Source: Candidatus Omnitrophota bacterium (GTDB taxonomy: Bacteria > Omnitrophota > Gorgyraeia > Gygaellales > Profunditerraquicolaceae). From it: 48,932 nucleotides of DNA. Position 1 is the first letter of the stretch. The number at the start of each line of letters is the position of its first letter. Under the pieces are notes generated by a model. The model was not told the origin of the DNA. It worked only from the letters and a program-made list of their open reading frames with translations, and searched no databases. Location: assembly GCA_003598025.1 (NCBI GenBank), contig QZKH01000004.1, positions 1 through 48,932 on the forward strand. Direction: 5' to 3'. The translations under genes were made by a program, and so were the position numbers. Below, in pieces: positions 1 to 31,100 of the stretch.

Positions 1-1190
1 ATAGACTCAAACATATATTTTGATAAGAGCGGCCAGCTTGATTACTTTACAGGTACAAATTATGTTAAGAATATTGATGGTAAGGGACAGTTTATAACTT
101 TAAATTCAACAGATAATGATGGTCAGAGGCGCATAGGTGGTTACAGATTCTCAGGAGTTCTTAAATTACAGCATAGCTTAGACAGCGAAAACAATGTTCG
201 TCTTGATGTCGCAAATATATATGATCCGGTTGCACAGCAGTATAAAGACCTTACAATTTATAATACTTATTATAGTACACTTGACGGTGTAAATATTCAG
301 AAAGCCGATATCAACACATTTTCAATAACTCCAAGGATTGATAATAAGGGTAAGACAATAACAGGTCAGGGAGATATACAGCTTACCATGGGTGGTATAC
401 CTGAAATGAATGCCCTGAATTCCGATAGGGGGGTATTTCAAACAGCGCTTAATTCTCCTTTTAGCGGCAGCCTCAAACAATTGATTAGAGAGCAAAGTAC
501 ATTGGTGACGGACAAAGGGTTTACTCTTGTTACTCCCGATGGGCTTGTTATCAATATTGATAAGAATGATCCGAGAGTAAAAGATTTAATCAAGAGGCTT
601 GATAAAAAAGCTATCTTGATAACATTAGATGATGGCACTCAAGTAGTTGCAAGCGAAGACTGGCTAAGCAGACCACGTTGGTGGAAACCTCATACTTGGG
701 GTGATTATAAAGGAGAAGCTGCTGATGGTGAAAGGGTATCATTGGATAATAGCCGTCTCATGGAGGCATATTTAGAATTAAGAAATGGCGGGCAAGGAGA
801 AATAGGTGAAGATTTAGATAAGCTTTTGCAGGGGGTGCCTGTAAAGGGGTTTATTGATGGGGTAGAGGTTATAGTAGATAGCGCAAGTTTAACCAGGACT
901 GCCGGCGCTGGCTTCTGGAATTTATCTCTTGACGACAAGGTATTTATTGATACCAGGGGAAATCAGTATTATATAGACGAAGATAGAGTAATAAAGGCCC
1001 CATGGCTTGGAAAAGATGAGCTCGCATCGTATGGATATAGAGGAGATGATATTTTAAATGAAAGTAGCAATGATTGGCAACTAATAGCAAGAGATGATTA
1101 TGGCGTGCCAAAAACAGTTTTTATAGATGGTAATCAGGCACAAGACTTAGTAGGTACTTATATTGACGATTTCCCTGATTTGTACGGCGC
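1..1190 (+). other. Beta-rich segment of the giant protein, family unknown
   Basis: The first ~395 residues in the window are rich in Asp, Asn, Gly and alternating hydrophobic residues. They include strand-like stretches such as GVLKLQHSLDSENNVRLDV, and later short FIDG/VFID segments (near 850, 940 and 1120) that look like repeated extracellular beta-hairpins. No catalytic motif is recognised. The segment precedes the Gly-rich hydrophobic region, an arrangement reminiscent of polymorphic secreted proteins (RHS or haemagglutinin type), but I cannot assign it to either. Confidence 0.4.
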
Positions 1191-7100: not shown

Positions 7101-10100
7101 GAGATATAGCACTGGTTTAATTACCCCGGATCAATATACATTCACAGTAATAAACCACGTGCAGAGATTGACGCAAGATAATATTGGTCTTAAGGAATTA
7201 ACCGGTTATACGCTGCATGGAACATCTGTTGTTAATTTACGCAACATAGCAAGAGAAGGCAAGCTTAAGACTCATCCAGGATTCTCGGGTGCTGAGGCAC
7301 CAGGAGTATTTGTTACCGTCGTAGATAGGAACACCAGACCAAGCCAGTTGTATTTAGGTAGAGGCAGGGATTACGGCTCAGTACCGGCATTATTAAGGAT
7401 CCGCCATCAGGATGTAATGGATTATTTTGCCAATAGAGGAATTGAAAAAGTATTCATACCCGGAGGCGCGAATGCTTCTCAATATACCATAGATATACCT
7501 GCCCAGTTTATAGATTATTATGATTTTACAAGGGACAAGTGGATACCTGTACAGAATCATCTGTTGGGTAACATGGATACCTATACTTTAGCAGGTTATG
7601 ATTATCAGGTTGAAGCTATTGAGGCTTTTGAGGGAGCCGGCCAGCAGGGTATAGCTGATAAGTTAAAGACCCTGCCTCCTTACGCAGAAAACAGCTATAA
7701 CAGAGTAAGGGCAAGATTACAGGAAACAGGCTTAAAGGGCGATAGAGTAGATATACTGGCTCTTGCTAAGACTCTTGAAGTAGTAGCCGGCAACCAGCAA
7801 AAACAGGCTGCTGAAGCTGTTTCATCTCCGATAGACGCAAATATATTTGATTATGCAAAGAAAGTCAGAGAGGTAGCTAATTTAAGAGAACAAGTGAGAG
7901 TTTCTGGCGCCTTGCTTGAGAGCTTAGAATCTCATCATAGGGATCCTGCGGAGATAGAGCGTACCAAGGAAGTTTTGGCTGATTTTTCAACGCAGTTAGC
8001 TGATGCAGAAGCTGTTCTTTTAGCTGAGGCTGTTCCGAATCTTTCTATAGATATGGCTTCGCTTTCACCGGTAACAGTTGAGCAGATAGCAGTATTAAAG
8101 TCACTTAGCAATGAATACCAACAGATAGTATCAGCAAAGCCTCAAGGCTGGCAGGAACAGGCTATAAATGTTACAGATTCATTGTTAGCTATCGTTGATC
8201 CTTGGATTACAAATAGTGACAACCCCGAACTTAATATTATAGGTGATAGCATAGGCACAGGCGGTGATCTTGCGGTAATCGATATACGCAACAAAGCAGC
8301 CGCACTTAAGGCAACCAGCGAGAATATGGGTAAGGCTGGCAGAGATACTAAGGATTATGAGTTTGCTCAACGTATGTTTGATGCTAGCGTAGAAGCGCTT
8401 AGTTCCGTATTGAACAAAACAGATGTATTATTAAATAGCCAAATATCTGTACCGCTCAAGATTCAAAATGATGGCAGAGTTGCTTTTGACCCTGCTTTTG
8501 TGACTAGAGTTTTAGTGGGTATTGCAGAAGCTACCCCGAATATTACAGGCGCATCAGTCAGCAGCCCGTTAATCAAAACTAATATTGCTTTGGATTTGCC
8601 ACAAACCCCAGCAGTCAATATCCAAGCCATACCTGCAGCTAAGGGAATTTCCTTAGACAGCCTTTTGGCATCAAGTGTCCCGGCTGAGTTAATAAAGACC
8701 CCAGTCATAGCTCCAATAGCAGTCAGCCCTATTGAAGAAGCGCCATTTAATCCTAATACTGCAGGTACATTAGGCTTTGGCATGGGCAAGACCCAGGCCT
8801 TACCTATAAATGTAGCAGGTGGTAGTGGTTCTGGAAATGGCGGCTCCGGGTTTGGCACAGGCTCAAACGGTTCTGGTAATGGCAATGGCAACGGCACAGG
8901 TACAGGTAATGGAGCCGGCGGCAGGCTCATAATAGAAGTAATGCCGGTTATACCTAAAGATTTGGGTTCGGTTGTAGGAGGCCTTTTAACCTCATCAGCC
9001 ATTGGAATGGCAGCGGATGCGAATAATCAGGACATGAGCACGTTCGGTGTCCAGATGCTTGGCCAGGCCGGTGGTATTAACGTGGCGGCTGCGAATCTCC
9101 CATTCGCAGGTCGTGGTAGTGAAATAAGCGGGAGAGACAATCAATATAGCAGCGCAATTAGTATCGTCAATGGTTTATCCAGAGATGATACAAGGTTTGC
9201 CCAAGGCTTGAATGCCGAAGGCAAAGGTTCAATAGTTGTAACAACAACTAAACAGGAACAAACGAATGCATCACCTGCAGCAAAAGATGTTGCAAACGTA
9301 ACAGGTTTTGGTAGCAAAACCAGTGGTTGGGCGAGTGCTACCTTAAAAGGTAAAGTAAGTTTAATAAAACCCGCATTAAATAACAGAATCCATGAATGGC
9401 TTCATGGATTATTCCTTATAAATCCAGTTGAAACCATAAGTGCTAGAGGTCCGCCATATCAAGTCACAAGGTCACAAGGTCACAAGGTCACAAATAATGT
9501 AAATTCCGCTTTAATCTCACCTATTGAGTTAGGAGCAGTGGATTTTGCTGCTTCGTCCGCTATTCAAGATATTAACAGGGAATCAACAGATAGATTAGTT
9601 CGGCCGCAGATTCCTTCCGTGGCAGGAGAAGATGCGGCTATTAACCCTCGTTACGCTCAGGATAATCCCGAGCGCAGTCGAGGGATTGTTGTTAATGAGG
9701 GCTCTTTGACGAGAGCCCCCCTCCAGGGAATGACCCCTCTTGCTGGAGCCCTCGTAACAACTACACCCCAAGTCACAAGGACACAAGGACACAAGAACAC
9801 AAAATTATTAACCAAGCCGCTGTCTGTTCCTACCGTGGCAGGTGAAACAGAAAAAGCGGCATTGTTGTTATCAGAGGCTGTAGAGCCCCATAACCTCCAG
9901 GGGACTGACCCCTCTGTGGCCTCTGATACAACTGTAACAGGAGGTGCAAAATGGTTCAGCTCAATTTTAACGAGATTGAATTTGACCACCTTGTTGAGTT
10001 CATCAAAGATAGGACAGTATTTGCAGCAGCTAGGCAGAACATTACAGGCCATATGCGCTTATTCCTCATCTTCGAAGATAATGGCAACATCTACACCCGT

Positions 10101-13100
10101 AACGGTAGAGCAGACAGCTGGGAACAGCTATATGGCGAGGATGCAAGCATCATCGCAGGTAAGATCGAAGCAGCAAAACATAACCACATCCCGGTATACA
10201 GAATCAACGGCTCGCATAATTAATGGTGGTTCGGCAGAAGCCAATGAAGAACTCGCCACAGGAGGTTTACGAGCCGTTGCTTCTTCCCCTATACCGTTAT
10301 TTAAGGATCAATATTCTCAAGGAGATCTTATTGATCCTCTGTATTGGGGGACAATTGAAAGATTTGTTTTACCGCTTCTGGATAGAGCTAAGCAGGGCAG
10401 GATTTCTTCTCAAGAGATAAAAGATACAGCAGCGCAGGCTGTAAATACTCTTCATGACCTTTTAGCAGGAAGGACCGAAGAAGAGGGCGAGCGCCAGAAA
10501 TTAGCCAAAGCAAGAGATTCTATCATTGCTGATATTCAAAATGGCTCTGACCAGCAATCGTTTGCAAAGGTAATGGCTGCTTTTATAGGTGAACAGGCTA
10601 AAGCAAACGGTAATGGAGGGTACGCCAATGTTTATTTCCCGAGAGATATGGCTCTGTGTTTCCCTGCAGACGCTGTTGTAGATTTGCTCAATGACGATAT
10701 GCCTAGCGCAGGGCTCTATTATATAAGCAGAAATAATTTTGCATATTATTCATGGATGAGCAGCACAATAGATTCATTAAATCATACCTCTCATGGCACA
10801 AAAGAACTATTAGAAGGTTTTATCAGAGCCATAAAGGAAAAGATGGAGAGCGATGCCGGATTTAAGGCAGCGATTAATAAGATAAAAGAAGAATTAGATG
10901 CATTAGGCTATGGGAAAATGAAAAAAGTGCGCTTCATCGATTCCGGTTTTAAGACATTCCCTCTGATGATGCAGGCACTTTTTGGTATATTCTACCCGCA
11001 CATTGAAACCAAAGGCTTAGTATTAGCTAGTTCGGTTCCAAATTTCTTACCTCAACTGGATAAGAAAGATTGGCGCCAGAAAGTCCGAGCTGCTATTGAA
11101 TCCAATCCTTCATTAGCAAAGCACGCTGTTCCTAATCTTGGTACAATGGAAAGCGCAGAAGATTTCTTTAAGCATCCATTTAAATATGACGGCGGCATGG
11201 TTCCTACTTCTGCGGCAGACCAGTTATTGTCATTCTGGTATCAGTTTGCTTTTGTGGCAGGTGCCATATTCTACGACAGGTTGGTAAAAGGATTAATTGA
11301 TGACTTGGAGAAGCATGGCGTTGAAGAAGAACAGGCAAAAGAATTAGCCCACAACGCTGTTAAGGATACCTTAGGTGTAGTAGATATTGAAGATGAGCAA
11401 ACCGGTGTAGAAACTGCGGTATTAGCCGTGTCTACAACCGAAGATGATAGTGAAGAAAGTACGGCTGATGATTTAGTAGCCCAGGTTGAAGCAAAATTAG
11501 CAGAAGAGGTGCCTGGGTTTAGCCTCTCAGAGGACACCAAAGAAGATTTGGCTGGTTTGGCTAAGGATAAAGCCACGGCAGATTCTACTATTGTTAAGGC
11601 AGAAAAGGCCAGGGATGATAAAAAAGACGATGATCAGAACAAAAAGCAAAGGTCGTTGTTAGCTTATATTGGCAAGATATTAAGGAATAAATATTTCAGA
11701 GTAATTGCCATAACCGTTCTCTTATTAGTAATCTTCCTTAAATCATGCCTGCCAATGACAGTAGATAGAAATAATGGTAAGGCTACCGTAGAACCTAAGG
11801 CACCACCTGCGGTTGTATCAGTTTTACCTGAACCTGTTACGCCTGTCCAGGTAACACGCACAGTCCCTATTTCTTATGAAGATAAGGTTGATGAATACGG
11901 ACATGTGTATCATTATGATCCGATAAGTGGAAGATATTATACGGATATCGATGCCACATGGACAAGCAAGAACCCTGCTAAATTTACCACTGGAGGTATT
12001 GCCAGGGGTTCCAGAAACGCTGGCGTGGGAAATGAATACCCTGCGTTGTATTTTGATGGTGTAAATCAGGTGGTGAACGATACGGCGAATATTGATAATA
12101 ATTCGGTTCCTCCGCAGTATATCACTCATGTTGGAAACAGATTTTATGTTGGCGAGGTTTTACCAAGCACAAAGACAGAAACCGTTATTGAAGAAGGTAA
12201 TGCCCCATCTTCAGAAGAACCGTCAGTAATCCCGCCATCCGAACCTCAGCCGGAAGATGGCACAACAAATACAAATCCTGAGACTGATTCGGAAACACCA
12301 GTTCATGAGAATACCAATAATTATTTATTACCTATATTATTAGCCGGTGCAGGCGCTGCACTTCTTGGGTTGGCTGCTATACGTAGGGTATTTAAGAATA
12401 AATCTGCTCCAAAGGCAGCTGAAAAAGGCCAAGAAGAAGCTGCAGCCAAAGGACCAGCTGTGACTTCTACAACTGCAGCTACAGCTGATTCAGCCTCAAC
12501 AGATGATTCCGCAAAAGAGTCCCCGGTTACAACCGCAGCCGAAGGCGATATTACCAGTGAAGAAGCCGCTGAAGAAGAAGCCATAAAAGCAGAACAGGCA
12601 GCAATTAAGGCTGTTGCCGATAGAGAGTTAGCCGAAGAAAGAGCTATGCAGGATGCGCTTGAAGCAGGCCCTGTAAGCTTGCCAAAAGCCAATGTTCCTA
12701 ACGCCGTTAAGAAAAGTTTAGATAAGATTAGGAGAGCTAGGACAGAGGAAGAAGTAGAAAACGCCAGAAAAGCAGCATTGCAGTATATTAACGGCAGAAA
12801 AGGACAGGGAGTAAGCGCAAAGAATAAAGCTTTGACTGAGGCAGTGGTTAACGAGGAAGCAGATAACGCCATTTTAAGATTAAGGGCTAAAGCCAACGGT
12901 ATAAAGACCAGGGCTGAAGAAGCAAAGGCAAATGCCGCCATATCTGAAATAGCAAATAGAGCCAGGGATTTTGCAGCAGCAATAAGCATCGATGAGCTCA
13001 TTAGATTGCATACTGAAGCCATAGAAGCAGTAGGGGCAGCTTACTTAAGAGGTGATATTGATGAGGCAACAAGAAGCAACCTCTTAGCAATGCTTAAAAA

Positions 13101-16100
13101 TGAAAAGAAGGCCGTTGAGAAATCATTAAAGCAGGAATTAAAAGATAAGAAGGCTGCCGAAGAAACAACGACTGCCAAACAGCCGGAAGAGGAAGCCGTA
13201 GAGCCTCAAGAACAGAAATCCGCAGAAGAAATAGCTAAGATTAAGAAAGCAGCTGCCAAGAGGCAGAAGAAAGCCCAAAAACAGGAAATAAACAACTGGA
13301 TCAATGAGCTGAATAATTTTGAACCCGAAGTAGTCAATGATGAAAACAGACCTGAGTTACAGGCTGAAATAGATGATGTCCGTAGCGTAGCCTTAGCTGC
13401 TATAGAAGAAACAAGCTTAAGCGCGGAAGATAAAGCTCAGTTACAGGAATCAGTAGAGGATGCTTATGCTCGCGCACAGGAAAGGTTAAATAGCGTAGAT
13501 TTGGTATATGCTTCAGATGCATCAAGTGAGCCGTTCAATGGTATTAATTTAGGCCAGGTAGCAGCAGAGCAGGGCCAACACGAAGAAGAAACAGCCCCTG
13601 GAGCCGGAAACAATAGCCAGAAGAAAAACATTGGAAAAGCAATTTCTGCCTTAGAGGAAGTAGTCAATACCGAAGAATTAGAGGAAACTGTTGCAGGGAT
13701 AATGCAAGATATAGACGGGTCAACTTTAAAGGATAACACCAAGGATGCATTATTAAATAAATTACAGAGAGCTTATACTGCTGCTCAAGAAAGAATTAGG
13801 CAGTCAGCTGTTGATGAAGCTAATGCTAAGGCAGAAGCAGCCAAGGCCCAACAGGAGGCGATGGAAGAAGAAGCCAGAGAAGACAGAGCCCTTAGAAGAG
13901 CAGTAGAGCTAGATGTTGAAAAGAACATCTCACTTTTTGCCGCTGCAGAAAACATAGCCGAAGTAAATAATTTAGCTGTTGATGTTGAAAATGAAATTAG
14001 TAATTCCGGGCTATCGGGACAAGCAAAAGATAAATTAATGGCCAAGCTAGAAAAAGCCAAAGCCAAGGCAATAGCAAGGTTAGAATATGAGGCAAGGAAA
14101 GCTTTAGAAGAAGCCAATCCGCTATTATCAATCTTGCCTAGAGAGCAGGCAGAAGCACTTTTGAATTTAAAGGATAGGTTATCCGATAGCAGGGAGGCTG
14201 TAGAAGATGCATTAGTCGAAGCCCAAAGAGGCAATGATGAAGTATCAAGATTGGCAGAGGCGCAAGAAATAATAGCTGCAGAAAGAGCCTTAAGGCAGCA
14301 TGAAGCCGAAGTTTCTCAGGCTCCAGTTGTAAAGGCAGGACAGCCAAGAGGCTTATTCGGTTGGGTCAAGAGAATGTTTGGCTTTAAGGGTAGCTCCAGC
14401 CCGATAAGAGAAGATAAGCAAGATGGGGCGTCGTCACCGGTAAAATTAGCCAAAGATACAGCTATAACATACAGTCATGGAACCTCAAGCCCTATCGAAG
14501 TCAATTTTGACGACAAGGTTGATGAACAAGAAGCAAAGGTTATCAAAGGCCTGCTTGCCAGGGACGGATTCCTTACCGAAACGATAAGAAGGATATTCAC
14601 TGTTATGAGAGCCCAAGAAGATATTAGCTTTGTCTACGTAAAGAAGCATGAGCGTGGCAGCCAGAAGCAGGTTTATTATGTGGAAGTTCACACAAAACAA
14701 GAAGAAACATTTAGTTTCGCCCTTAAGAAAGAACTAAGGCCGGGCGGCTTTAGGGAAGAAGAGATTAAGAGGTTGATTGATTTAAGCGCGCGCGCTTCGG
14801 TAACTCCCAGATTCGGAATTTATATTGGAGTAGAACAGTCAGACATAGAAGGCGAATTACTTGAGTATAAAGTTTATAGTGAGGAATTCATTGACGGCGT
14901 AACCGCAGCCCACAGGATTGTAAGGGATGGTATTACTGGAGACGTTATCAGGGATATAATTAAAACATGGATGACTATTGTTGTTATGTTAAGCAAGATG
15001 AATGGTAAAGGCGCTTATTATACGGTTATGGATATGCAGCGCCAGAACATACTCTTTAGGATTAAAGACAAAGAAATAAGAGGGCCTCCTGTTGTTGTAG
15101 ATATCGGGCTTGTAATTAAAACCAGCCCTTACGCTATCTTTACAGAATTATTCAGGCATTATAATTATGATTATCAAGATGCTATTAACATTATAGCCTT
15201 AGCTATAGTAGAAGTTTTAGGCGTAACACACGCAAGAGAATTCTTTAGCAGCATAACCCACCATATCAATAATAGAAAAGCCCATGCTATCACTGCCCAG
15301 GATGTTCTTATTAAGAAGGCATTAGAAGGTATTATAACCTCTCTTAGCCAAACCGATTCTTCAGAAGAGCAGTCATCCAGCCCGATTACAGAAACTCAGC
15401 ATGAAAAACTCGTAGCTTTATATCAGAATTTAATAGCCGAACGTGAAATGCCTATAGATTGGCCCAGGGGCTCGATATATAGAAGGACAATCGCAGAGCA
15501 TTTTAGGTATAGTTTAGTTGACAATGAGCATGCGCAATTTTCTACTGCAGTTGTATTGATCAAAAGCGGCATAAGTGTTTATGAGGTATTTGAAAACTGG
15601 AAGATATTTATTAATGGTATCAAAGATAGTGAAGTAACCGGTACTTATGATTGTTATGCCTGTGTTGGTTATGCAGTATCTGCTTTAGATAATAGTGGCA
15701 ATAGGGTTTTGGTGCTTGGCCATGCAAGGCCGAAAGATTTTGCAAAAGCGATAAATCATGATATAGAGCAAGTTGCGAAGGTTGCGAGAGGCAAAATCAC
15801 AGTAGTTGTTTCTTATAACGAAGCAAATAAAGGTAATCCAAATGTTGGTGCTGAAGAGCTGTTCGAAAACTTAAACGCAAGTGAAAATATAGATTTACAT
15901 GTCCTTCCAAGAGCAAAAGATACGGTTGCTGCATTAATTGCTACAGGCGCAGGTGTAAGCCATATAGTTGTGCCTGGGGATTTGCATAATTCTTCAGCAC
16001 CTAAGGTTGAGGCTTACGGTAAAGTTGCTATAGCAGAGACAGTATTATTTAATATTTCTTCTTCGCCGGTTAAGCAAATAAAAATACAGGTGAAAGTCCA

Positions 16101-19100
16101 GACAGCTTGGGAAATCATGAAGGCCAAGGTCAGTTTAAGCAGGATTACCGATAATAGCCCAGCTACAAAATATTCGTTGAATGTTTATAGAAGCAATAGG
16201 CCTCAGGCATATGCAGTTAGAGACATAAAGAGGAATATCGTTGAGGTGAATTTGTCTACGGGGTTAATAGATATGTTAGATGAAGCTGAAATTGCTTTTG
16301 TTATTGGCCACGAGATGTACCATGCCTTGACATCAGCTAATGAGGGTTTATTGGTTAAAATATATAGTGTATTAAAAACTATATTGTCGTCTGGTTACCG
16401 CAGAGGGTTAATAGCAGATGAATTTAGCGCAGACATATTTAGTTTCAATTTAACAATCCATCCATATGGAGAGATAAAGGCAGCTTATGCGCCAGAAGCA
16501 GTCTTAGGGATATTCGAAAAGGCAAAGACGGTTAAGACACCTATTTTCCATGATATTCTTAATCCCCATCCGCCGGTTGAAAAAAGAGCCCAGATACTTA
16601 GGGCATTAGCAGGGCTGCCGGAAAGTGAAACAAGAGGAAGTGTTGTTACCGAGCATGAAACTAAACAGTCAACCATAACAAGAAGGGACATCCTTTTAGA
16701 CATATTAGGCGGGCTGCTGTTTGTTTCTGCTGTAGGACATATGGTCGGGCCATGTTTTAGAAGCAATAACGAGCCTGAACAGCCAACCCGTTTGACTGTT
16801 GCTGTTGAACCTGAGCCTTCGGCAGAGTTCGTATATGACCCCAGCAGGTATTATAGTCTGTGGTATGCATATGGCCAGGATGAAAGCGCGTTCCTCGATT
16901 TTGGCAAGAGAGACAGCTTGCCAGCTGCTATAAAGGATGAATTATTCGGTGGAAATAGGACAGGTAAATATCTTTTGAATGAATTGTATTATGTTGTGGT
17001 GTTTGCGTTATTTGCTGACGTTGATCCAATTTTTGCTCTTGCTCACTATATTAAAGAAGGCCGTGCAGATTTCGGCATGAACTTTGCTTTTGCTAATACT
17101 GGAGACGGATCATTACACCAAGATTTCTGGGAGAAGACAGTACAGCCTCGGTTCAGAGAGATTTATGGAGAAGAGATATCCTATGGATTCTCTAATTGGG
17201 AGCAAATGCTTTATGATCCTTGGATAGGGCCCTATGTCTACAGAAGCTTGTTAGAAGATAAATTAATTGGTTACGCAGAAGAATTGGCAGGCAAGGGGAA
17301 CAAATTCAAGATTATAACCAATTGCCAGATATTAGAGGAAGCAGCTAAGACCTTGCAGCTTTATCAGGGCTGGGGTAGCGTAAGAACGAAAGGAAGTAGT
17401 GTTAATTATACCAGCAGAAATTCATCATATAGATATGAATACGGATATTCTATTTTGGCAATTATGTTGTTATTGCAGATGCCAGAAAACAAAGCTGTTA
17501 TAGATGGTGTTATCGAGAAAGCCAAGCAGAATACAATGAGTTTTAGGTCAGAATTCAACTCCGGATTTTCCACTATATTCGGAATTGATGTTAACAAATT
17601 AGCCTCTAGCCCGATTAAAGAATCAGGAGAAGCTTCTTCGCCAATATCTCGTGAAGAAGCAATCGAGGTCAGATTGTCTGAATTAGTTGAATTAAAGATT
17701 ACGCCTCTATTCAGGGATTCCAAAAGATCCCGCATGTTAAACAAATTGGTGGCTATTGCTGCAACAGATATTTTAGACAGAGTTCTAGATGAATTTGAAG
17801 TTACTCTGGATGATATAGAGATAGCTTACAAATTGCAGGTTATGTTGAATAATATAGGAATAGGAGATTTTAAGGTCGTCAAGCCCACCATAAAACACAG
17901 GCCTTATTTTGTCGAATATAAATCAGGAGCATCGTCCCCTATTAAACTCGATGAATTAAGCGGAGAGCACCGTCAGGCAGTACTTGAGTTGTTTACCCAA
18001 AAGTTCATCGCCGCTGCCACAGAAGATCGTTCCAGCGTTCCTGCCAGAGAAGCTGCCAAGCAGCTCTTTGATACAATGTGGGAGCAGGAAGATTTTGTTT
18101 CTGAAAATAAAACAGCTATAAGTGATGAATTAATAGATAAAGTATTTACCTTAGATACTTACAACAGGGCGCAGCAGGCAAAAATAACCAGGGAATTTAT
18201 GGCAGCGCTTAAGACTGTTGTTTTTGCAGAAGGCACACCAATAAGAGAAGGCGCAGAAAATGTATTTGAGGAGATGTGGGGTAATTGGGAATTTAACGCT
18301 TCAGAGGAACTTAAAGCAGAATTAAAAGCAGATTTTGTAATTGATGTAGTCGGCCTTGACGCCCTAAGGGAAGAGGCGCGAAATCAGGACTATTATTTAT
18401 ACCAGATGATCGCAGCAGGCAAAGGCACATATATAGGTAAGATATTTAAGGCGATAGGCTGGAATGTCCCTGTTTGTTACAATGATGCACACGGGCTCAT
18501 TCTCATCGGAGATATCAGAGAATATGAGTCAGGTAAAGGCGGATTAAGCCATGGTTCATGCCCTGAGTGTTTATTTGATCATCTGCTAAGCATTAAAAAG
18601 GACTTAATAAGATCCGGACATTCAAAGGGTTTCAGCGAGGAAGATATTGCAGAATTAAATGAGCTCTTGCATAAGATTACCGAGCAGTTAAGGATTACAA
18701 AAGCCGCTATTCAAATACCAGTTGCAATAATTGCAGAAGGCGAAGCTTCAAGCCCCGTAGGGCCGGATAATGCTTATTTCTATCTTGCTTTATTAGAGAT
18801 GTTACCGGGTATGATTATGTCCGGAATTAGGGCAGAAGAGGAAGCGCAGGCTGCAGAGTATAATTATAATTTAAGCTTACTGCTTGATTTATTAATTGAA
18901 TTTTATTCTTTAAGAGATTTCGGAGTAGCAGTATTTGGTAATTTAACCATGACTTTAGGTACACAATCTACCGTGATTATTATTTCCTCCAGCCCGATCA
19001 GAATCCTTGTGGTTGACGATGAAGAACCTCTTAGGGAATTTATGGGCACGACTTTAAAAAGAGGTTTTAGAGCTATGGTTGAGGATGTTGTTGTTGCCAA

Positions 19101-22100
19101 AGAAGGCAGAGAGGCGCTTGATTTGTTTGTGGCTGCAAGAAATGAAAACAGACCGTTTAATTTGATTGTTACTGATGACAGCATGCGCGGGGAATATGAA
19201 GAAGAACTTATGAATGGACATGAATTAGCGCGCGCTGTTAAAGAGGTCAGCCCGACAACACCAATTATAATGGTTAGCGTGCAGACGGTTGATGAACGCG
19301 GGCCTGATTACTATCTTGCGGAAAAAATAATAGATAGATTCCTTAGAAAGTCACCCGATTTTTATGATGATTTGTTAGTTATAGCTAAAGAACTGATTGG
19401 CGTTTCTCTCCAAAGTGAAACTAGTCACGCCTCAGACGAAGAGGCATCCAGCAGCCCGATTTCGCATAATCAATACAGGGTTTTGGTTGTTGATGACCAT
19501 GCTGATACTTTGATGATGCTGCCTGTAATGTTAAAAGGCATGGAGGATGATTTAAAGGTTAGATTTGAAGTAATTACTGCAAGTAATGGTATATCGGCTT
19601 TAAGTAAATTCAAGGAAGCATTAACTCAAGGCGGGGTAGATTTTATAATTACCGATATCGGGTTACCGGATATAAGCGGTAACGAACTCACAGCCAGAAT
19701 CAAATCTGAGGCACCTGTTTATGTTATCAAGATTACTGCTTACGAGGAAGACGCAGCCTTAGGCCAAATGGATGATTTTATCCAGAAGCCATTCAGGTTC
19801 TCCAAGCTTGAAGAAGCCGTAAGGAAGGCTATAGAAGCAGTAAATGAGAGAGGCGCTTCAAGCCCGATTGATAAAAAGGCGGCCTATGATAGATATGATA
19901 AAATACGTGGCAAGATACGTACGTATGAGCGTAAAGTTACTGAAAAGAGCGGATTAATTGATGATGCTGCTGTAGGATTAAGTGAGGCGATAGCAGGATT
20001 AGAGACAGTTATAGAATCGGCTTTTGAGAGGATAAACAGTTCTCTGCGCGAGAATTCTTCTTTAAATATATTTGATATTATGGAAGACTTAGGTGTAGAG
20101 GGTGAGAATATCTATTCAGTTCAAACTTTAGATAAGATTTATCAGCATATCGAAGATGCTCCAGATGTTGCATTCACCAATACAAATTACCGATACACAA
20201 TTCTTAACGATCTAAAAGAAATAGCTCCTGTGTTCTGGAAGAGGGCGGAGAAAGTAGCCAAGCTTAATAAGAGGCAAGAAGCTTTTGAAAGCATAGCTGC
20301 AGAATACTTACCATCAAGAAGCGAATTATCATTCTATACTATAATCTCAAAGTTTAGGAGAATTATTAAAGATAGGAAATATGTCTTAACTGCCAGGGAG
20401 CGTTTGGATTTGTTAATTTCGTTATTAAGAGATGAAGTAAGAGATGAAGTAAGAGATGATATAGAAAAGATATTTGCAGATGCCCAGGAATATTTAAAAC
20501 AGAGTGCAGGAACTATGAAAACGATGAGAGGGTGGGCTAACTTAATCGAGGAAGTTAGGATGGTTACAGCTGATAAGATAAAACAAGCTATAAAGACCAA
20601 GCTTCCGAGTCTTTTCTCGCACCAGGATATCATTTATATTATCCTTCTTACCATTTTAGAAAGAAATAGTGAACTTACTGACAAAACTATATTGGGTGTT
20701 ATAAAAGCCAATAATATTGAAGATATAGTTACAGATGGTGTTTTAAGAGACTACGGTTTATTGAATACAAAACGTGATGTAAATAGTCGGCTTATTAGAG
20801 TGCTTGATGCAGTATTACCAAAGATAACTCGAAAAGAATATTTTTATCATAGAGTATTACCAGCTGTTGGCGTGGCGTTAGTAGCTGTCGTTGCTGGAGT
20901 AGTCGCTTTCTTATTATTGCCTATGAAGGGAGCATATGCGGCTACCACAAGCGGACAAGCTTATTTACCTCTATATAACTTTGGCTCTGATGTTTCTGAT
21001 TTTGGTTATGGTATGCCCGCTCCTGAAACTATCACCGACTTTACTCAATTTGAAGATTATTTAAACACTTGGGCACAGCAGCAGTTAGTTACGTTAGCTC
21101 CGGAGGTTGCAGAAGCTGAAGATGCAGCTCCAGCTGTTGATGCAACTATATCCGGCAATGCTACAGAGCCTGCGAACGTTAAATACACGGTAGTTTCAGG
21201 TGATAATCTCTCTAAGATTGCGAAGAGGCATTTGGGTAAAGCAAGCCTTTGGCCGCAGATATATGCAGCTAATAAAAAGGTAATCGGCAATAATCCTGAT
21301 TTAATTATGCCAGGGCAGGAGCTTACTATAGAAAATATAGGTCACAAAGTCACAAAGTCACAAAGTCACAGTGAAGAAGCTCCGGCTAATGCAGCTCCAG
21401 TAACGACAGATAGGACTGAGGCGGTAGCGTCGGTTAAAGTAGAACCGCAGCCTGCGCAGGATGCAGAGCCGGTAGTAGCAGCAACTCAGCCTCAAGTAAC
21501 TCCAGAGCCGGTTGCGGTTGATAGAGAAGAAGATCATAGTAAAGACGCAGTAGCCCAACAGGAAATAAGGGCTCCTCCTGCAGGTTTCACAGCTGAAAGC
21601 CTCTTAGCAAAGATCCTATTCTCTGATCCGCGCATTAAAGCTGATACAAAAGGTAACTATGCAGTTCCCGAAGGCCTTGCCGCCGCAGTAATCGCCGAAC
21701 ACCTCAAAGATGCATTAAATTTAGAATATTACGAAGTCCCGGCAAATATAGCCGGCAGGCTATATTTTGAGAAAGTCGCTAAAGGAATACAAGCTCAATA
21801 TCCAGGCTCAGCAGTTGTCGAAGTGCACCTTAATTCAGATGAATATATCGGTTTATTCTATCATAACGCAAATGGTGATACCCGCTTGTTAACAGTCCAG
21901 GAAGGAAGAGTTGTTGACCTTCCTTGGAGCGCTAACGTTTCCGATATCTTAAAGAAAGATAATGTAGCTTTACTGGAATTTGGTTCAGCGGCAAAATTAC
22001 CTAAACTTACCACAGAGCAATTTAATGATCAGGTTGAACAAGCAAGAAAGTTGGTTGACTATTACAAAACGGAAGTTTTAGGCTTGGATGAGAAAACGGA

Positions 22101-25100
22101 AGTGGTTTTGGCTGCCGGACACGGCGGAAGGAATTATGATACTTCATGTGCACAGAGGCATAAATTGTTCAAGATAGTCAGAAGTACAGGCGGACCGGTT
22201 GAAGTAACCGCAGAAAGAGCAGGAGAAATAAAGAATATCGCTGAAGGTAATGTGGCAGATACAGAAGAAGAGCCGGTTGTTGAACAGAAGCCTCTGGTCG
22301 TTGTTGAACCTTTACCTGTACCTGCTCCTGCAAAGCCCGTAGAGGCAGCAGCTACTGAGGCATCTACAACAGAGGCTACGGCTGAAAGACCAGCAGTAGG
22401 GATAGATAGAGAGGATTACGTTGAAGATAAGGCACGATTAAGTGTATTCGAGTTAAAACAAGCCAGAGAGGTCAAATCAGATAAGATTGAACCGGTCTTA
22501 ATAAATATCGATTCCATCCCCATAGCTATAAGAGACCTTATTAATTTAGGTGCCTCTAATCTTTATGAGGGAAACTATGAAGAAGCGGTATCTCAATTAA
22601 CCAAGGCAATTGTTATATCGCCGGAATATTCACAGGCTTATTATTTAAGAGGAATTGCTCTTTTTGCTACTAATCAGTTAGACGCCGCGATCGGGGATTT
22701 GGAAAATGCGCTTAGGTTTAATCCAACGCCATATATTAAGAAAACAGTAGAAATAAACTTGCCGATTTTGAAAGATTTAATGGCAATACCAGAAACTGAA
22801 TCTACAATTCAAGAAGGTATGGTGGTTTCCTTCGTGTTTAATTCAGGAGTGAACAAAGAGCTTGTCGAAGGAGATGTTTCTGGCGATTTAGAAAATAGGC
22901 TTACACATGGAAGTTTGGCAGCGCGTGTATTAAGAAATGTTTCTCCGGATGTGGAAATTGTTTCTATATGCGTTGAGGATAACGGTAGGAAATTTGATTA
23001 TAAGTTAACCGAAGGGTTGTTTAAGGTTTTGATTTATATGCGGCAACATCCGGAAGTAAGAGCTGGGGTGGTTAATTTCAGCGCTGGGAATAATGTTCCA
23101 GATCCTTTTCAACAGGCAATAATAAGAGAATTGCATAGTAGAGGAGTGGTGATTGTTGCTTCTGTAGGTAATGATAATAGTATGGAGATGACTTATCCTG
23201 CTGCTTTTGATGAGGTTGTTGCTGTTGCTGCGGTAGATAGGTTGAATAACAAAGCTGAATATTCAAACTATGGTAGATATGTAGATATTTGTGCTCTTGG
23301 AGATATCCAGGGAATTTATAACGGCTATTACCTTAAAGCGCAAGGAACTTCAGTAGCTGCGCCTCGTGTTGCTGCTCTAATTGTCCAGATGTTGCAAGCT
23401 AATCCAGAATTAACTCCCCAGCAAGCTTTTAGAATTATTAGAGATACAGCAGTACCTATAGACGACAAGCACTTCAGGGAAAATTTGTTAGGTTCAGGCG
23501 TAGTTGATCCTAATAGGGCTCTAGCTAAAGCAGGAGATTTTGATAATAACGTAAATAGAGAGAACACATTTCCCATAAATCAAGAGTCTATGTGTCCCAG
23601 ATTAGATGTAGAAAAATATTTTATAGGCTTAGTCAATAACCAGACAAACGACAGTTTTGCAGAACCAGCTAACTCAACAATAAGTACCCATGGAAGAAGC
23701 TTTAGCGAATTAGTTAATATCTTGCAAGATCCTTGGTCGCGGCAGTTCAAGGATAGCGCATGTATTTCGGCCATATCCGAACTTACTAAATATAACGATC
23801 ATAGAGTAGTAGAAGTGCTTAGTAGCATTTTGTTAGAAAAGGATTACGACTGGGATCTAGGTACTAGATATGCAATTATAGATGCATTAGGTAAGTCTAA
23901 CGATCCGCGCGCAATAAGTGTTTTACTCAAGAAAGTGAACAGTGAATTTGATGGCATATGTGCCGCGTCGATATGTGCCTTAGGTAATTTGATAAACGAT
24001 GAAAAATGCAATGCTGAATTTATGAGATTGGCAATAGACAATTTTGATTTATTTTCTAGAATTCTGGAGAAAAGAACATCTCCTTCTATAAGAACAGAGG
24101 TGACTGAAGAAAATTTGGTAAGAATATTAGATGCTTTAAGGTGGTCTCCAAAAGGTATTAATGAGGAAGTGTTGTATCTTATTGCGAAAAAAGATTGGGG
24201 AAGAATCGTTGAAGTAGGAAAACCAGCAGTTGAATACTTGATTAGAGAATTAGCCAATGAATATAGTCTAGGAATTTGGGAGGATGTTGCCGCTACGCTC
24301 AGTAAAATAGGTGATAATAGAGCAGTGGAGCCTATTAGTAAATTATTAATTAGTTCTAACTTAAAAGGTAAATTTAGTTTACAAATAGCCATAATTAAAG
24401 CTTTAGGTGACTTCAAGGATTCGCGTGCCATTGATTCTTTAATTGGAATCCTTCAAATCTATAAATATCAACCAGACGTAAATCCTTATATATATCCGGG
24501 GGTAGTACGTGCTGTGCACGTAGATTATAAAGTTCATATAGCAGCTATAGAAGCCCTGAGTAACTTTAATAATGAGCGAGTTATTAAAATCCTTACTACC
24601 ATTTTAAACAATACCCAGAAAAAAGTTGACTCTTTTGATGCCTATAGGCGTGAAGCAGCAGCTTTGGCTCTAGGAAATATTAGAAATGATTCTGCTATTA
24701 ATTCGCTCTTGAAAGCAGTAGAGAACAAGGATGAGGAATTCTTTGTACGAACAGCCGCTATTCAGGCTTTGGGTAAGATAGATAATGATAGTGTGCTTGA
24801 GGCGCTTAAATTGATTACTGAAGATAAAAATGAAGATTTCCATGTAAAAGAAGAAGCAAGAAGAGTAATTGAATTATTCAAAAAAAGAACTATTAGGTTG
24901 CAGCATGACATTAATGAGAATAGCTCGCATCTCGATACTTTTATAGTTACTAATAATTATGCAGAAGCTATCAGTTTGGCAGAAAAATATGCTGAAGACG
25001 GTCGAAGATTATTATTTGAAGGTAGGGAGAAAGAATCAAAAGCAAAATATGAATTAGCTGCTGAGTGGTTTATAGCTGCAGAATCGTTAATGGATAGAGA

Positions 25101-28100
25101 AGCTGGAGTAGTTAAAGAAAGAAAAGAAGAAACGAGTAGCTTGATGGTTAAGAAAGCAGAGTTAGAAAAGATTGTTTTCTTGCAAGTCAGAGATGAGATT
25201 AATCCGAGAATCCAGAAATCTCAAGACGGCGAGTACGCAGCGAAATTGAGATTGGCTCAACGTTGGTTAGAAGAACTGTATAATTCTAGTTTACTCCAGA
25301 TAGATTCTATACATAGAAGTGTTGAATCACAGAGTAATTATAATACTGTTGAAATGAAGATTACCCAATCAAATACTCACGAAGAAGCAACAAAGCCAAC
25401 CGGACTCTGGGTAAGCCACGTTGGCGGAGCAATAGAGAATAACCAGGCATTCACTTATGATCAGGCAGCAAGAATAATTCTTTCAGTGAATAATCCTCAG
25501 CCGGCATTCAGTGCAGAAGGATTAGATGAGAATTTAGGTCTTTATTACAGCTTAAACGTAGAATCAGCTAAGGCCGCGCTCGATTTTTATCTAAGAGAAT
25601 ATACGAGATTAACAGCGGATGGGAAAGAATTCCACGGTTTTGCATGTGCTTATGATGCCGGAAACGGCAAGGAAGCAGAGTTTGTTGTAAGGGCCGGCCC
25701 TAATGCCTGGCTTGCGATGGCAATACTTACTTATACGGCAAGGACTAATGACAATACATATTTACCTGTAGCTATTGCAATTGCCGATGCATTAATAAAA
25801 ATCCAGGATGAAGACGGCGGTATAGAGCTTGGCTACAATATAAGCGCAAATAAAGAAGCGACAGCTTATTCATTATTTACCGGCCATGCGACAGAAGAGA
25901 ATATTGATGCTTATGCGTTATTTAATATGCTTTCTCAGATGCCGGGGATTACGAACCCTGAAAAATATTCAGCAGCAAAAGAGAAAATTGCCAACTGGCT
26001 GGCAACATCTGCTTATGACAAGAAAGAGCACAGGTTCTACCGCGGATTAAAATTAGACGGAAATGGCGACCATTGCTTTGCTACGGACACAGCTTCCTGG
26101 GCGATAATCGCTCTGGGCAGGGATAAATTGGCAAGTATGGGCATTGACCCAGAGGCATTATTAAGAGCCGCGGAAAAAGAAACAAAAGTTAAGGACGAAT
26201 ACTTAATTCCAGGTGAAAAAGAAGGGACAAAGGTCGAAGGTTTTGATTTTGCCAATCCAAAAGATGCAGGCAGGAAACGCAATCCTACCGTAACCCCTGA
26301 ATGGACTGCCGGGATGGTTTCTGCATATCAGGCAATGGGCATGCAGGATAAGGCAGATTATTACCTTGGCCAGCTTGATAGTATCAGGCGTGAAGGCGTG
26401 CTTCCTTACGCAACAGATAATAATATACCTACCGGCCATGGATGGAACACACCGGATGCTAGAGCTTCGGTTGCAGGCACTATCTGGTTCTACATTGCAA
26501 AATCAGGGGATAATCCTTTTACTATCGCTAATGAAGGTAAGGCAACAGACATACCGGATGACATCGGCTTGACTTTTGTTTCCAGAGAACAGAGATATTT
26601 AAGCATCGGGCAACTTGAAGCAAGCATAGATAATGCCCGCCAGAACACAGTCAACCAATTAAAAAGGCTGCAGGAAGTAATCGCACAGCGCAATGAAGAC
26701 AGGGAAAAGGATATTATGCAGATATTGCTTACCTTAAATACCCAGACTTCTAATTCATTGTTAAGCTTTAAGGCAGGCAATAACCTGTTTATTGGTTTAG
26801 GCGTTGGCGGTAAAGGCTATGATTACGTAAATGCAATAAATATCCTGACCGGCTTATTTGAAGCCGGCAGCATTGATGTTTTTGGCGGCTTGTCCTTAGT
26901 CGATAGTTTATTAAATATAATCCAGCAGCCAAGGGTTGCTAAGGCAGAGCGTGACGGCGCAGTATTGTTTATTAAAGAGCCTCCTTCATTAGATCTTAAA
27001 ATAATCGATATCGGCCTTGGAAAATTGTCGCTCTTCGGAGGCCGCCTTACACTGTTGAATTTACAGCGTAACGAATTTGCCTACTTCCCGCTGATTGACT
27101 TAGAAAATGAGCAGGTGGTTGAACAGCATAGCAAAAAAGGCGTAAACTTAACCATACCCGGCGAAGACCTCGGTAATTTCTTTAAGAGCATATTTAAAGG
27201 CGAGAAACACAAAGAATATCCGGCAATAGTAATCTTCTCAGCAAGGCAGAAAGCCGCCCTTGAAGAAGCAATGTTAAATACCGATCCTTCTTATATATAT
27301 TGGATTGAAAGAAAAGGGAATAACCAGATTATTATAAGGAATAATATTGATACCGGCGAGCGCACAACGCTCTCGGTCGCCAATATGTACCATGATTTTA
27401 CAAAGGATTTCTTGGTTGACCAGGGCGCGTGGATGGAAGAGGGCGCTTACAGGATCCCGTCACTGGTAGATTACATGAGAAACGGCCAGTATATGAGCGC
27501 GTTACTCGGGTTTGGCGGAGAAGTTAATTTGAGAGACAGGGAAATAATAGTCTATCAGTCAGAGCAGGAGATACCTGTTGCGGCTGATGGTATTGCCCCT
27601 GTTGAAATATTCAACACCTATTTCTATAATCCCGATGGTTCTGTAAAAACAACGCCATTAAACGTGCCTATCAATCCATATACAGGCAACATAATTATTC
27701 CTTCACTGCATATAGCTAAGCTTGAATATTTGGCATTAACCAGGGGCCTTGTAGGTAAGCAGTTTGTCGTTAATCCGGATAACGCAAGGGGCACATTAAA
27801 CGTTGTTGATCCTGCTAACAGGCCGGAAGTTATAACTCTTCCGCAGGGCACAGAGATACAGGTTAACACCGGTAAGAAGATAAAGGCCCAGACTTTAGAA
27901 AATGACTGGCAGATAACCTATGATGCAAGATTTACTGAAGGCACAAAATACAGTATTGATGGAAGGCCTTTTGCCAAAGTTAAAGCTGAAGAGCTCGATG
28001 TGCCTTATGCCATAATCAGGACATTTAGAGCAGATGTTCCCAGGACTGTATTTATCCATGATTCTTCGGTGTTAAGAGGCATACCTGTAGATGTGCTGGC

Positions 28101-31100
28101 TGATGAAGTAACGATTAGTTTTGGTAATGGCTTAAAGATCACATTAAAACCCGGCACAGTGGTGACATATCACAGCCAGTTAACAGCCAAAGGCGCAAAC
28201 GGCAGCTTAATACCTGCTATAGTTGAATACGCGGTTGACCAGGAAGCAAAAGGCAAATACGCAGTATTGATAGATGAGAACGGAAACAGAAGGTATCTGG
28301 ACGCTCCTCCCGCCGGATTAATCGAAAGAAGAGATATAGAGGAAGCAAGAATTAATATTGAGAGAAGGCGCGGCACAGGCGAAATCAAGCTGGAAAGAAA
28401 TGGAGCGCCGCTGGATTTTGAATATACTCCGGCATCGCAGGAAGATTACGAGGCATATGTAAAAGGCGTATTGGAATATGTAAGAAAAGTAGCTTATTGG
28501 AGGGCTGGTAAGACATACAACGAATGGTTAAGAGGCGTTTATCAGGAACTGCCCCGCTCAATGGAATCTGCCCGTATTGATTTAGATAATAAAATGTATA
28601 TGGAATATATTATCAAGCAGTTTGAGGTAGAGCAGAGAGAAAGGATAATCTTCCTTACTAAGCAGTTATTGCAGGCACAGGTTAACCTCAATGATGCAAT
28701 GGGCTTCTACAATAACGAGCTTGGCAGGGCAAGAGAAGGAGTCGATTTCTTAACAGAACAAATCAGCAGGGTTAATGGCAACATTTCCAACTTCACTGAT
28801 TTGATCGCTCAGTATGTTTCAGAAGGAAATGACGGCTTGGCGGATTATTACCGTGAATTACTGGAATCAGCGTACAATGAACTTGAGTATTATAACGGCG
28901 AACTTGAGATCTCCCAGAATTGGTTAGGCAGGCTTACCGCCTTAGAAGACGAGTCTATTGACGCGGTATATAATGTGCTTACCGGAAGAAGAAATGTAGC
29001 TATGTATAGCGGTCAGTTAATACGCGCCTCTGCTTTAGCTAATGTCAATTGGTATGGTTCACCGGATAACGCCAGGCGCGCTTTAGAGGCCTATACCGCT
29101 GAGTCAAACCTGCAGATAGCGGAATCAATATTGAATGCCCAGAGAGGCGTAGCATATTATGAGCATCTCCTTGAGATAAGCGAAAACGATATGGAAGATT
29201 TAGCAGCAAGAATAGAAGAATCAGAAGCGGCAAGGAATGCTTTGATTGAAGAACTTAACGCATTAAACGGAAGCGCAGATACAGAATGGAGCAGGGAGTG
29301 GATAAGGGCCCAGCTTGAAGCAGCCAGAGGAGATTTGGATGATGTTACAAATGGAGAATGGGGAATTTCAGGTTTACAGCAAAGGCTTGAAGAAGCTAAT
29401 CAGGAATTAACCGCACTTCTAAACCCTGATACAACAAGCTGGGGTATTGCAGGCCTTATGGCAAGGTTAGACCAGGCAAGAGATGACCTTTCTTCAGTAG
29501 AAACCGGAGATTGGGGTATACCGGGCCTGGAGGCTAATTTATCAGAATCACAAAGCGCATTGAATAGCCTCTTAACAGATACAGAATGGGGCATACCCGG
29601 ATTAGAAGCGCAGCTTTTAGATGCCCAGCAGAACGGCTCAGAAGATGATGTTGAATACTGGCAGGGAAGGGTCAATGAGGCTTACGAATATAGAGACCAG
29701 CTTGTTAATGAAGATATACCTTACTGGGAAGGAAGATTGACCACAGCTACTGAATACAGGGATGGCTTAAGAACAGTAGATGTGCCTTACTGGGAAGGCC
29801 GCCTTCAGGATGCAATTAATTACAGAGATGAATTGGTAAACGAAGGTATACCTTACTGGGAAGGCCGTATTGATGAGGCAGAAGCTTACCGCGACTCATT
29901 AGTTGATGGAGACGGTGTTGAGTATTGGCAGGAGAGGTTTGACGCAGCAAACGCAAGGTTAGAAGACCTTACTTTTAACTTAATACCTGCTGCTTCCGAA
30001 TATAATGTCTGGTTAGACGACCAGATGGCCAATTGGTTAAGATACAATAGGCAGCTGCAGGAAGACTTAGCTAACGCGCAGGAATACTTAAGAGAGCAAA
30101 TAGCAAATGCAGTAGAGGCCAGAGAATTTGTACAACAGAGAAATGACAGAATAGCTGCAGCGATTGATATGCTTGAGAAATTTATACCTGCAAGGGAAGA
30201 GCTGCTTGATAACTTAGACAGGATTATGGAATCAGGCCTCGGCACAGAAGCCCAGCGCCAGGAATTAATCAGGACAGAGGATGAGCTAGTAAGACAAGGC
30301 GAAAGCTTAAGAAAACAGATACCACACGGCTTCTTCCTTAGCAAAAAAGATTTTAAAGAAATAAGAGAATCCAGAAGGCCGCAAGGTTCAATTGGCTCGT
30401 TCTTTACTCAAGGCCTCTTAGGTAATCAGGCAGTGGCAACAGATGTGTTTATGCTCGGAAATTCCGCAGTTGACCTGGCAGTAAATGCTATGCAGCTTGA
30501 TGAGGGCGCTCCTCAGACGAAGGCAGTTGCATTAGGTATACGCACGCCGATAGGCGAGACCGGAACAAACCTCTTTAAGATAGAAAGGGCCGAAAGAAGC
30601 GGGTATCGTGAAACAGAACCCGGTGAATATGAGCCTTATAAAGAAACCCACTGGGTAATATTTGACAATGCCAATTTCGTATTTGACACAGAGCACCATA
30701 TAATAAAATTAGCAATTGCCGGTGTAATCGATGTTCAGGAAGGCGATGACGGCCAGATTTATGCGGTAGGATTCCACTTTGATGATGAATTTAAGAAAGA
30801 AGTCTTTAATAATTTCAGGGCATTCATTGAGGCAAAGGGCGGAATCGCAGGGTACAGCGATACAGATACAGTCCAGATTGCGATGCATGAGCCTTTTACT
30901 GGCCAGCAATTTTATGTCCCGCAGGATATATTCGTGCGCGAAGGGTTTAGTTTCGGCCAGGTAGGATTCGGTTTAAGAGACAGGGAAAATGACAGGGAAT
31001 TTAAAGTATTTGTCCGCGCTGAGCATGACACAAGCAGATGGTCACCCGGAGATTTTGCTTATATAGGCGCGGCATTTAAAGGTAAGATTTACGGGCCTGT

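Follow-up and report, generated by a model that had tools for sequence, protein, structure and literature searches.

The giant proteins of Omnitrophota rank with the largest known, and the usual view takes them for surface weapons that stay intact. In membrane polyproteins of RNA viruses such as flaviviruses, a single chain places segments on either side of the membrane, contains internal signals, and has a second class of cut sites, with a short fixed motif, on the cytoplasmic side. Here we describe a 48,932-nt contig of a Candidatus Omnitrophota bacterium (assembly GCA_003598025.1, contig QZKH01000004.1; the window hereafter is this entire stretch). The whole window is one stop-free frame of 16,310 codons, open at both ends. 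From its sequence, we consider the giant frame to be, with reasonable though not high confidence, a polyprotein that combines complete cytoplasmic and exported proteins, in which the tetrapeptide SSP[IVL] is recognized for cutting in the cytoplasm.

Giant open reading frames (ORFs) are known in Omnitrophota, and that of V. archaeovorus encodes 39,678 amino acids (aa) with 42 predicted helices (Seymour et al. 2023, PMC10066038). The window frame belongs to the same phylum and size class (48.9 kb, above 20 kb), and shares several transmembrane helices, few annotated domains and predicted exported domains, including export of carbohydrate-type domains, with what the available text of that account describes. 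Unlike in that text, which makes no mention of them, the giant frames studied here have a repeated junction motif, internal signals of the twin-arginine translocation (Tat), lipoprotein and Sec types, and a topology conflict. The polytopic Rieske protein of Streptomyces is described as having an internal Tat signal through which Tat exports the C-terminal domain (PMC13186574). The window likewise contains a twin-arginine segment in mid-chain, but TatA and TatC were not found here and a further in-to-out signal comes next with no return helix in between. The window may also be likened to flavivirus polyproteins, with one chain, parts on both sides, internal signals, and a second class of cytoplasmic-side cut sites with a short motif. 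In contrast to these, the window is bacterial and far longer, and both its cutting and its protease are inferred.

SSP[IVL] is a specific junction motif in the giant frames

The window makes up all of contig C4 in a 1.69 Mb genome (G000) of 10 contigs. Contig C5 carries another giant frame (25,332 aa, open at its 5' end), which is probably part of the same gene. The two frames contain 91 copies of [SAVTI]SSP[IVL], compared with 2.0 expected from residue composition, the basis of all expected motif numbers. The window accounts for 27 SSP[IVL] copies (0.59 expected) and C5 for 64 (1.40 expected). Single-position variants stay at background level in both frames, and each of the four positions is clearly enriched in the named residues alone. 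The preceding residue is mostly S, A, V, T, or I, beyond which no conservation was seen around the motif. At the DNA level, inspected for the window's 27 of the 91 copies, synonymous codons vary freely, which places the selection on the peptide. In ordinary frames of this genome (204 ORFs with 66,395 aa, covering ~230 kb of the 1.69 Mb) there are 2 copies vs 3.1 expected.

The motif lies between domains. None of the 91 copies is found inside 29 listed Pfam stretches, where 8.0 would be expected; these are the best stretches of families above cut-off, one family per place, with further HEAT, TPR, and HTH repeats omitted. Some copies adjoin Pfam stretches exactly, such as 1 aa upstream of receiver domain 1 and 1 aa downstream of a HATPase_c domain. 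The predicted exported stretch at aa 6975-12811 contains none of the window's 27 copies (P 6e-6 if uniform). Two hallmarks of polyproteins are thus present, namely complete proteins for different compartments in one frame and a specific short junction sequence.

Two other origins of the motif were considered. The residue [IVL] does not appear to be a former start methionine, as Met occurs 1, 0, 1, 0, 2, and 1 times at positions +4 to +9 (1.7 expected at each) and, in the MSRRNF sequence of the relative G027, follows the V of SSPV. Ribosome skipping of the 2A type needs conserved residues upstream; none are conserved upstream of the motif, although no search with a 2A pattern was made. A general literature search, in which the motif letters themselves were not used as query, returned no paper describing the motif. 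The stretch 17605-18990, which begins at the SSPI pair proposed as a cut, has no relatives in any of the 126 other genomes among the 127 searched, and a first scan of the genome contigs with the region gave no match.

The motif recurs in relatives and precedes export signals

Giant frames of several relatives are also enriched in the motif. Observed and expected numbers are 43 vs 0.80 in G012, 27 vs 0.82 and 11 vs 0.37 in two frames of G048, 10 vs 0.24, 5 vs 0.07, and 4 vs 0.08 in frames of G009, and 5 vs 0.05 in G027. Three frames of G024 have 3 vs 0.36, 1 vs 0.20, and 2 vs 0.15, and two shorter G048 frames have none. The form of the motif differs by lineage, being SSSPV in G012, [AGS]SPL in G048, and SSP[VLIAST] in G009 and G027. 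Such drift is expected of a recognition site that tracks its partner.

Tat signals carry the consensus [ST]RRx and two hydrophobic residues, followed by a moderately hydrophobic core, and other export signals follow the AxA and lipobox rules. In relatives, SSP[VL] is located directly upstream of Tat signals, as in SSPV-MSRRNFIG. Three of seven Tat-type signals in SSP-rich frames start 5-6 aa after SSP[VL] (P ~3e-5), and a fourth starts 6 aa after an ASPV variant. The seven include a weak match at window aa 1602, and two further SSP-rich frames had no Tat-like segment. The arrangement is clearest in a 1,073-aa fragment of G027, which reads TPR-SSPI-TPR-SSPV-...-SSPI-receiver-like-SSPA-receiver-SSPV-receiver-SSPV-MSRRNFIGTMFAGVASANMLQGC-subtilase, where MSRRNFIGTMFAGVASANMLQGC is a Tat-lipoprotein-type signal starting right after SSPV. 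The receiver and the subtilase (40% identical) are homologous to those of the window. The receiver homologous to receiver 1 is preceded by SSPV at the same boundary, while the sequence upstream is unrelated. G009 contains the Tat-type segments SSPVTITRREFIAAAV, SSPLDLNRRDFMRAVAAG, and AASPVKITRRNFIL. In C5, the Tat-type segment SISRRAFFVTAAVASVTAAFLGG lies 31 aa downstream of SSPL, and the terminal module carries LSGC, a lipoprotein signal, 68 aa downstream of the final SSPV. Judged by these positions, the SSP motif is a marker of the predicted front ends of proteins.

Canonical Tat-type signals (C5 aa 20249 and the giant frames of G009 and G027) occur in genomes where TatA and TatC were not found. 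A separate arrangement is seen in a 57,756-aa frame of G010 (G010:C2, L088-L097), some residues of which are undetermined. It contains six internal lipoprotein-type signals (LAGC, LSGC, IAGC, and LGGC), and a putative out-to-in helix immediately precedes two or more of these. The G010 frame suggests that cuts are made by signal peptidase II rather than at SSP.

A topology conflict between helices 3 and 4

The original prediction held that helices 3 and 4 both run from in to out without a return helix between them, even though two receiver domains, which belong in the cytoplasm, lie in the interval. Much of this description stands. Helix 4 (20863-20919, aa 6955-6973) has a KD19, the mean Kyte-Doolittle hydrophobicity over 19 residues, of 2.93 and a positive N-flank, and is followed by AYA/A. 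By the AxA rule, it looks like a strong, signal-peptide-like export signal. A LysM domain follows at ~21184-21330, as had been predicted. Both receivers, also recognized earlier, score above the Pfam cut-off and keep the acidic pocket, the phospho-acceptor Asp, the Ser/Thr, and the Lys by eye and alignment. The predicted exported stretch is ended by a strong segment at aa 12811 which, with KKRKG following, returns the chain. The features are listed in Table 1.

Table 1. Positions of features in the window (nt, 1-based)
Feature	Position	Strand	Remarks
Single open frame	1..48930	+	16,310 aa, open at both ends, entire contig C4
SSPV	16060..16071	+	aa 5354, start of the module M48-helix 3-domain
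Peptidase_M48 domain	16153..16605	+	HEMYH present; probably cytoplasmic
Helix 3, TRRDILLDILGGLLFVSAVGHMV	16678..16746	+	aligned with Tat signals of relatives
Lysozyme-like-looking domain (DPIFALAHYIKEGRADFG)	16918..17550	+	only in giant frames; fold and enzyme family unconfirmed
Hydrophobic segment LYYVVVFALFADVDPIFAL	16984..17040	+	aa 5662-5680, in the domain core; sole candidate return helix
Two SSPI	17605..17646	+	aa 5869 and 5879, directly after the helix-3 domain; proposed cut
SSPI	17932..17943	+	aa 5978
SSPV	18748..18759	+	aa 6250
SSPI	18988..18999	+	aa 6330, 1 residue before receiver 1; place kept in G027
Receiver domain 1	19003..19296	+	41.3 bits, over Pfam cut-off
SSPI	19450..19461	+	aa 6484, between the receivers
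Receiver domain 2	19480..19824	+	57.8 bits, over Pfam cut-off
SSPI	19858..19869	+	aa 6620, after receiver 2
Helix 4 plus AYA	20863..20940	+	signal-peptide-like, in to out
Predicted exported stretch	20941..38430	+	LysM, TPR, S8, HEAT; without SSP[IVL]
Out-to-in helix or helix pair	38431..38535	+	ends the exported stretch; KKRKG follows

No return helix above the hydrophobicity of ordinary soluble proteins was found between the helix-3 domain and helix 4. The best KD19 in aa 5701-6948 is 1.52 (at 6868), and the best before receiver 1 is 1.42 (at 6258), compared with a median maximum of 1.54 in random 1,250-aa soluble stretches of the same genome. The stretch YSILAIMLLLQ (17446), once put forward as a possible transmembrane helix, reaches 1.17 and is a conserved helix of the domain, with values of 0.10-0.64 in three relatives. 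The earlier statement that no out-to-in helix exists is accurate past the domain; it overlooked a segment of KD19 1.86 in the domain core (aa 5662-5680), which we judge not to span the membrane. Because the receivers are real, no return helix lies past the domain, and the core segment is judged non-spanning, the conflict read from the sequence is probably real.

Successive in-to-out signals without return recur in relatives, and the conflict is general in this sense. G009 has Tat-type signals at 2218 and 2768; the interval between them contains five SSP sites, and its KD19 never exceeds 1.23. In G273, the Tat signal at 1595 comes after a strong in-to-out helix at 1165, and no segment between the two exceeds 1.13; a further in-to-out helix (3197) lies beyond the domain, with no value above 1.31 between domain and helix. 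The chain of the window may moreover start exported, from a signal-like start on contig C9, and then meet an in-to-out helix at aa 3901. That helix may pose a further conflict unless a weak segment, for example at aa 416 (KD19 1.85), returns the chain.

Helix 3 resembles a Tat signal

Helix 3 sits in a linker with the M48 peptidase upstream and the lysozyme-like-looking domain downstream, and is weaker than originally stated. The segment at aa 5564-5582 (16690-16746) has a KD19 of 2.02, an Asp in its core, and an insertion estimate of ~+3.4 kcal/mol on a membrane-insertion scale. By sequence, helix 3 appears to be a weaker export signal than helix 4, and its role rests on comparison with relatives. 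The segment aligned with it is a textbook Tat signal in G273 (KISRRRFFVLLAGTTVGAVGIGGWI) and G313 (KINRRHFFAILAGTTVGAIGIGGWI). An unguided alignment sets helix 3 (TITRRDILLDILGGLLFVSAVGHM) on these two signals, pairing TRRDIL with SRRRFF and NRRHFF; the segment of G070 at this place has no twin arginine. Helix 3 fits the Tat sequence pattern, with a 15-residue core hydrophobicity of 2.39 vs 1.41-2.11 in Tat-type signals of other giant frames.

A profile search found no TatA or TatC in G000, a genome that is 96.6% complete, and for this reason helix 3 was not filed as a Tat substrate. Both proteins are present in G273 and G313, and were not found in G009, G010, G024, G027, and G070; Tat genes occur in 3 of the 9 genomes tested. 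Across the order, TatC has a match in 19 of 127 genomes, 17 of them over the cut-off. The best reading of helix 3 is a putative signal of Tat origin, which in this lineage without Tat has either been adopted by Sec or decayed.

If it has decayed, helix 3 no longer inserts, aa 4128-6955, including the M48 peptidase, the helix-3 domain and the receivers, would be cytoplasmic, and SSP[IVL] would be a linker, a binding site, or a modification site, so that no cut would be required in this region. We regard this as unlikely, though it is the best of the alternatives. Helix 3 is the sole strong segment that breaks the alternation in aa 3901-12811, and its core Asp, its insertion estimate, and the failure to find TatC and TatA in G000 all fit decay. 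Its core is nevertheless more hydrophobic than those of other Tat-type signals, which is the direction expected for a signal moved from Tat to Sec. The acidic motif EGR.D.G of the following domain is kept in all four genomes that have the domain, and the conflicts in G009 and G273 are independent of helix 3.

The helix-3 domain and the candidate return segment

The domain after helix 3 is rare: 2 of the 128 genomes searched in the order contain it, as do 4 of 384 in the phylum, a count that includes G000. The four copies all belong to giant frames, of 16,310, 7,435, 6,607, and 2,634 aa. They share the motif V[DE]P..ALA.YI.EGR.D.G. The domain had been taken for GH73-like, an identity that was not confirmed: there is no PF01832 match, PF01832 is absent from the genome, and hhalign with a GH73 of G011 was negative. 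It matches 0 Pfam families and has no significant match in NCBIfam, PHROGs, or PDB sequences; an NCBIfam search of the helix-3 region matched the M48 part only. An AlphaFold model of the domain alone is of low confidence (predicted local distance difference test, pLDDT, 54.7), and with it Foldseek gave a best E of 0.62 and VIA-align a best Z of 3.7, neither of them significant. A model of helix 3 plus domain was unusable (mean pLDDT 39).

If the core segment LYYVVVFALFADVDPIFAL (aa 5662-5680) spanned the membrane, it would return the chain and pair with helix 3 in a hairpin, and a single uncut chain would be consistent. Its KD19 is matched at the same place in G273 and G313 (1.82 in each), and a forced-alternation topology selects it. 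However, the value drops to 1.22 in G070, the segment contains an Asp and an Asp-Pro, and its insertion estimate is ~+6.5 kcal/mol on the same scale. In relatives this place runs into ALA[HQ]YI[KQ]EGR.D[FM]G, part of the conserved motif of the domain found in the four genomes. A hairpin is therefore improbable. Either the hairpin or a decayed signal would remove the conflict in the window, but not the motif evidence or the cases of G009 and G273.

A proposed polyprotein and the evidence against it

The giant frames are most likely chains of complete proteins that are cut at SSP[IVL] and sorted separately. One chain would be translated and then separated into complete proteins, some with their own export signals. 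SSP[IVL] would be recognized by a putative cytoplasmic protease, and signal peptidases would probably cut further at internal signals such as helix 4. Cuts at the SSPV at 16060 and the SSPI at 17605/17635 would yield a bitopic protein of ~511 aa, with a cytoplasmic M48 peptidase, helix 3 as anchor, and an exported domain. The receivers would become free cytoplasmic proteins, and the next exported piece would begin with helix 4. The original prediction that a cut near the SSPI cluster (17605-17932) resolves the conflict gains strong indirect support from the specificity of the motif, its position between domains and 5-6 aa before Tat-type signals in two relatives, and the recurrence of the conflict in G009 and G273; what it loses is the certainty that helix 3 inserts.

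Several observations weigh against the polyprotein. Helix 3, a weak inserter on sequence grounds, may not insert. No SSP lies between the M48 peptidase and the exported domain after helix 3. The motif is scarce or absent in some giant frames, with 4 vs 2.2 expected in G010 and none in G070, G273, and G313; SSP cutting is therefore not the general rule. A topology of forced alternation, which is crude and leaves out the G010 frame because it contains X, places all 27 window motifs inside and none outside, a result that depends on helix 3 being paired with the segment at 5662. The same procedure puts many motifs of other frames outside (in/out numbers of 42/22 in C5, 19/24 in G012, 13/13 in G048a, 10/1 in G048b, 3/7 in G009a, and 2/3 in G009b).

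Two further alternatives are very improbable. An uncut chain could span the membrane as written, with the receivers and other seemingly cytoplasmic domains outside as binding modules only; giant proteins of relatives are described as many-helix surface proteins (PMC10066038), but both receivers keep their catalytic residues, and the C5 frame contains HATPase_c, radical SAM, and DNA-binding domains. Alternatively, there may be no single polypeptide, either because translation begins at internal starts or because the frame results from faulty assembly. This would fit a gene split over contigs, but not a stop-free length of 48.9 kb, the giant homologues of the frame in other assemblies, or the lack of Met enrichment after the motif.

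More tentatively, some Omnitrophota could use a viral-type membrane-polyprotein strategy on chains of more than 40,000 residues, with one gene for dozens of proteins on both sides of the membrane, [SAVT]SSP[IVL] being cut on the cytoplasmic side by a dedicated protease co-evolving with the motif variants of each lineage and the outside cuts being made by signal peptidases. If the giant frames are polyproteins, the lengths, topologies, and functions of giant proteins need to be reassessed for each piece separately, and there is a bacterial system still to be discovered that processes proteins at a specific motif.

Contig order and other features of the genome

The gene probably runs in the order C9-C4-C5 and encodes ~42,800 aa, with gaps at both joints. 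The right end of C9 carries a 1,146-aa frame that runs off the contig, and the start of this frame resembles by eye that of the G010 giant frame. Shared contig ends were looked for at the joints between C9, C4, and C5, and none were found. The C5 frame holds the cytoplasmic enzyme families HATPase_c (histidine-kinase ATPases), radical SAM, GH77, HTH, and HD.

GH77 occurs twice in G000, inside the giant gene (C5 32582-34051) and as a stand-alone gene (C6 90256-91914). Among 40 genomes searched, the stand-alone gene is also present in most relatives and the giant-embedded form in G000, G012, and G048, the latter two showing the same pairing.

The subtilase embedded in the window has Asn at aa 7614 (22840-22842), where the G027 relative has the catalytic Asp (FNSGVN vs ILDSGVD). 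Because of this substitution, the window subtilase is probably impaired, as judged from the alignment.

The sequence RAPP occurs at window aa 2123, 7190, 10500, and 11108, along with two RGPP. In the control ORFs (66,395 aa), both are absent, compared with 0.29 and 0.28 expected. Short 8-bp tandem repeats of the GTCACAAG type lie at 9463-9493, 9774-9802, and 21341-21370, where the three frames give VTRSQGHK-like peptides.

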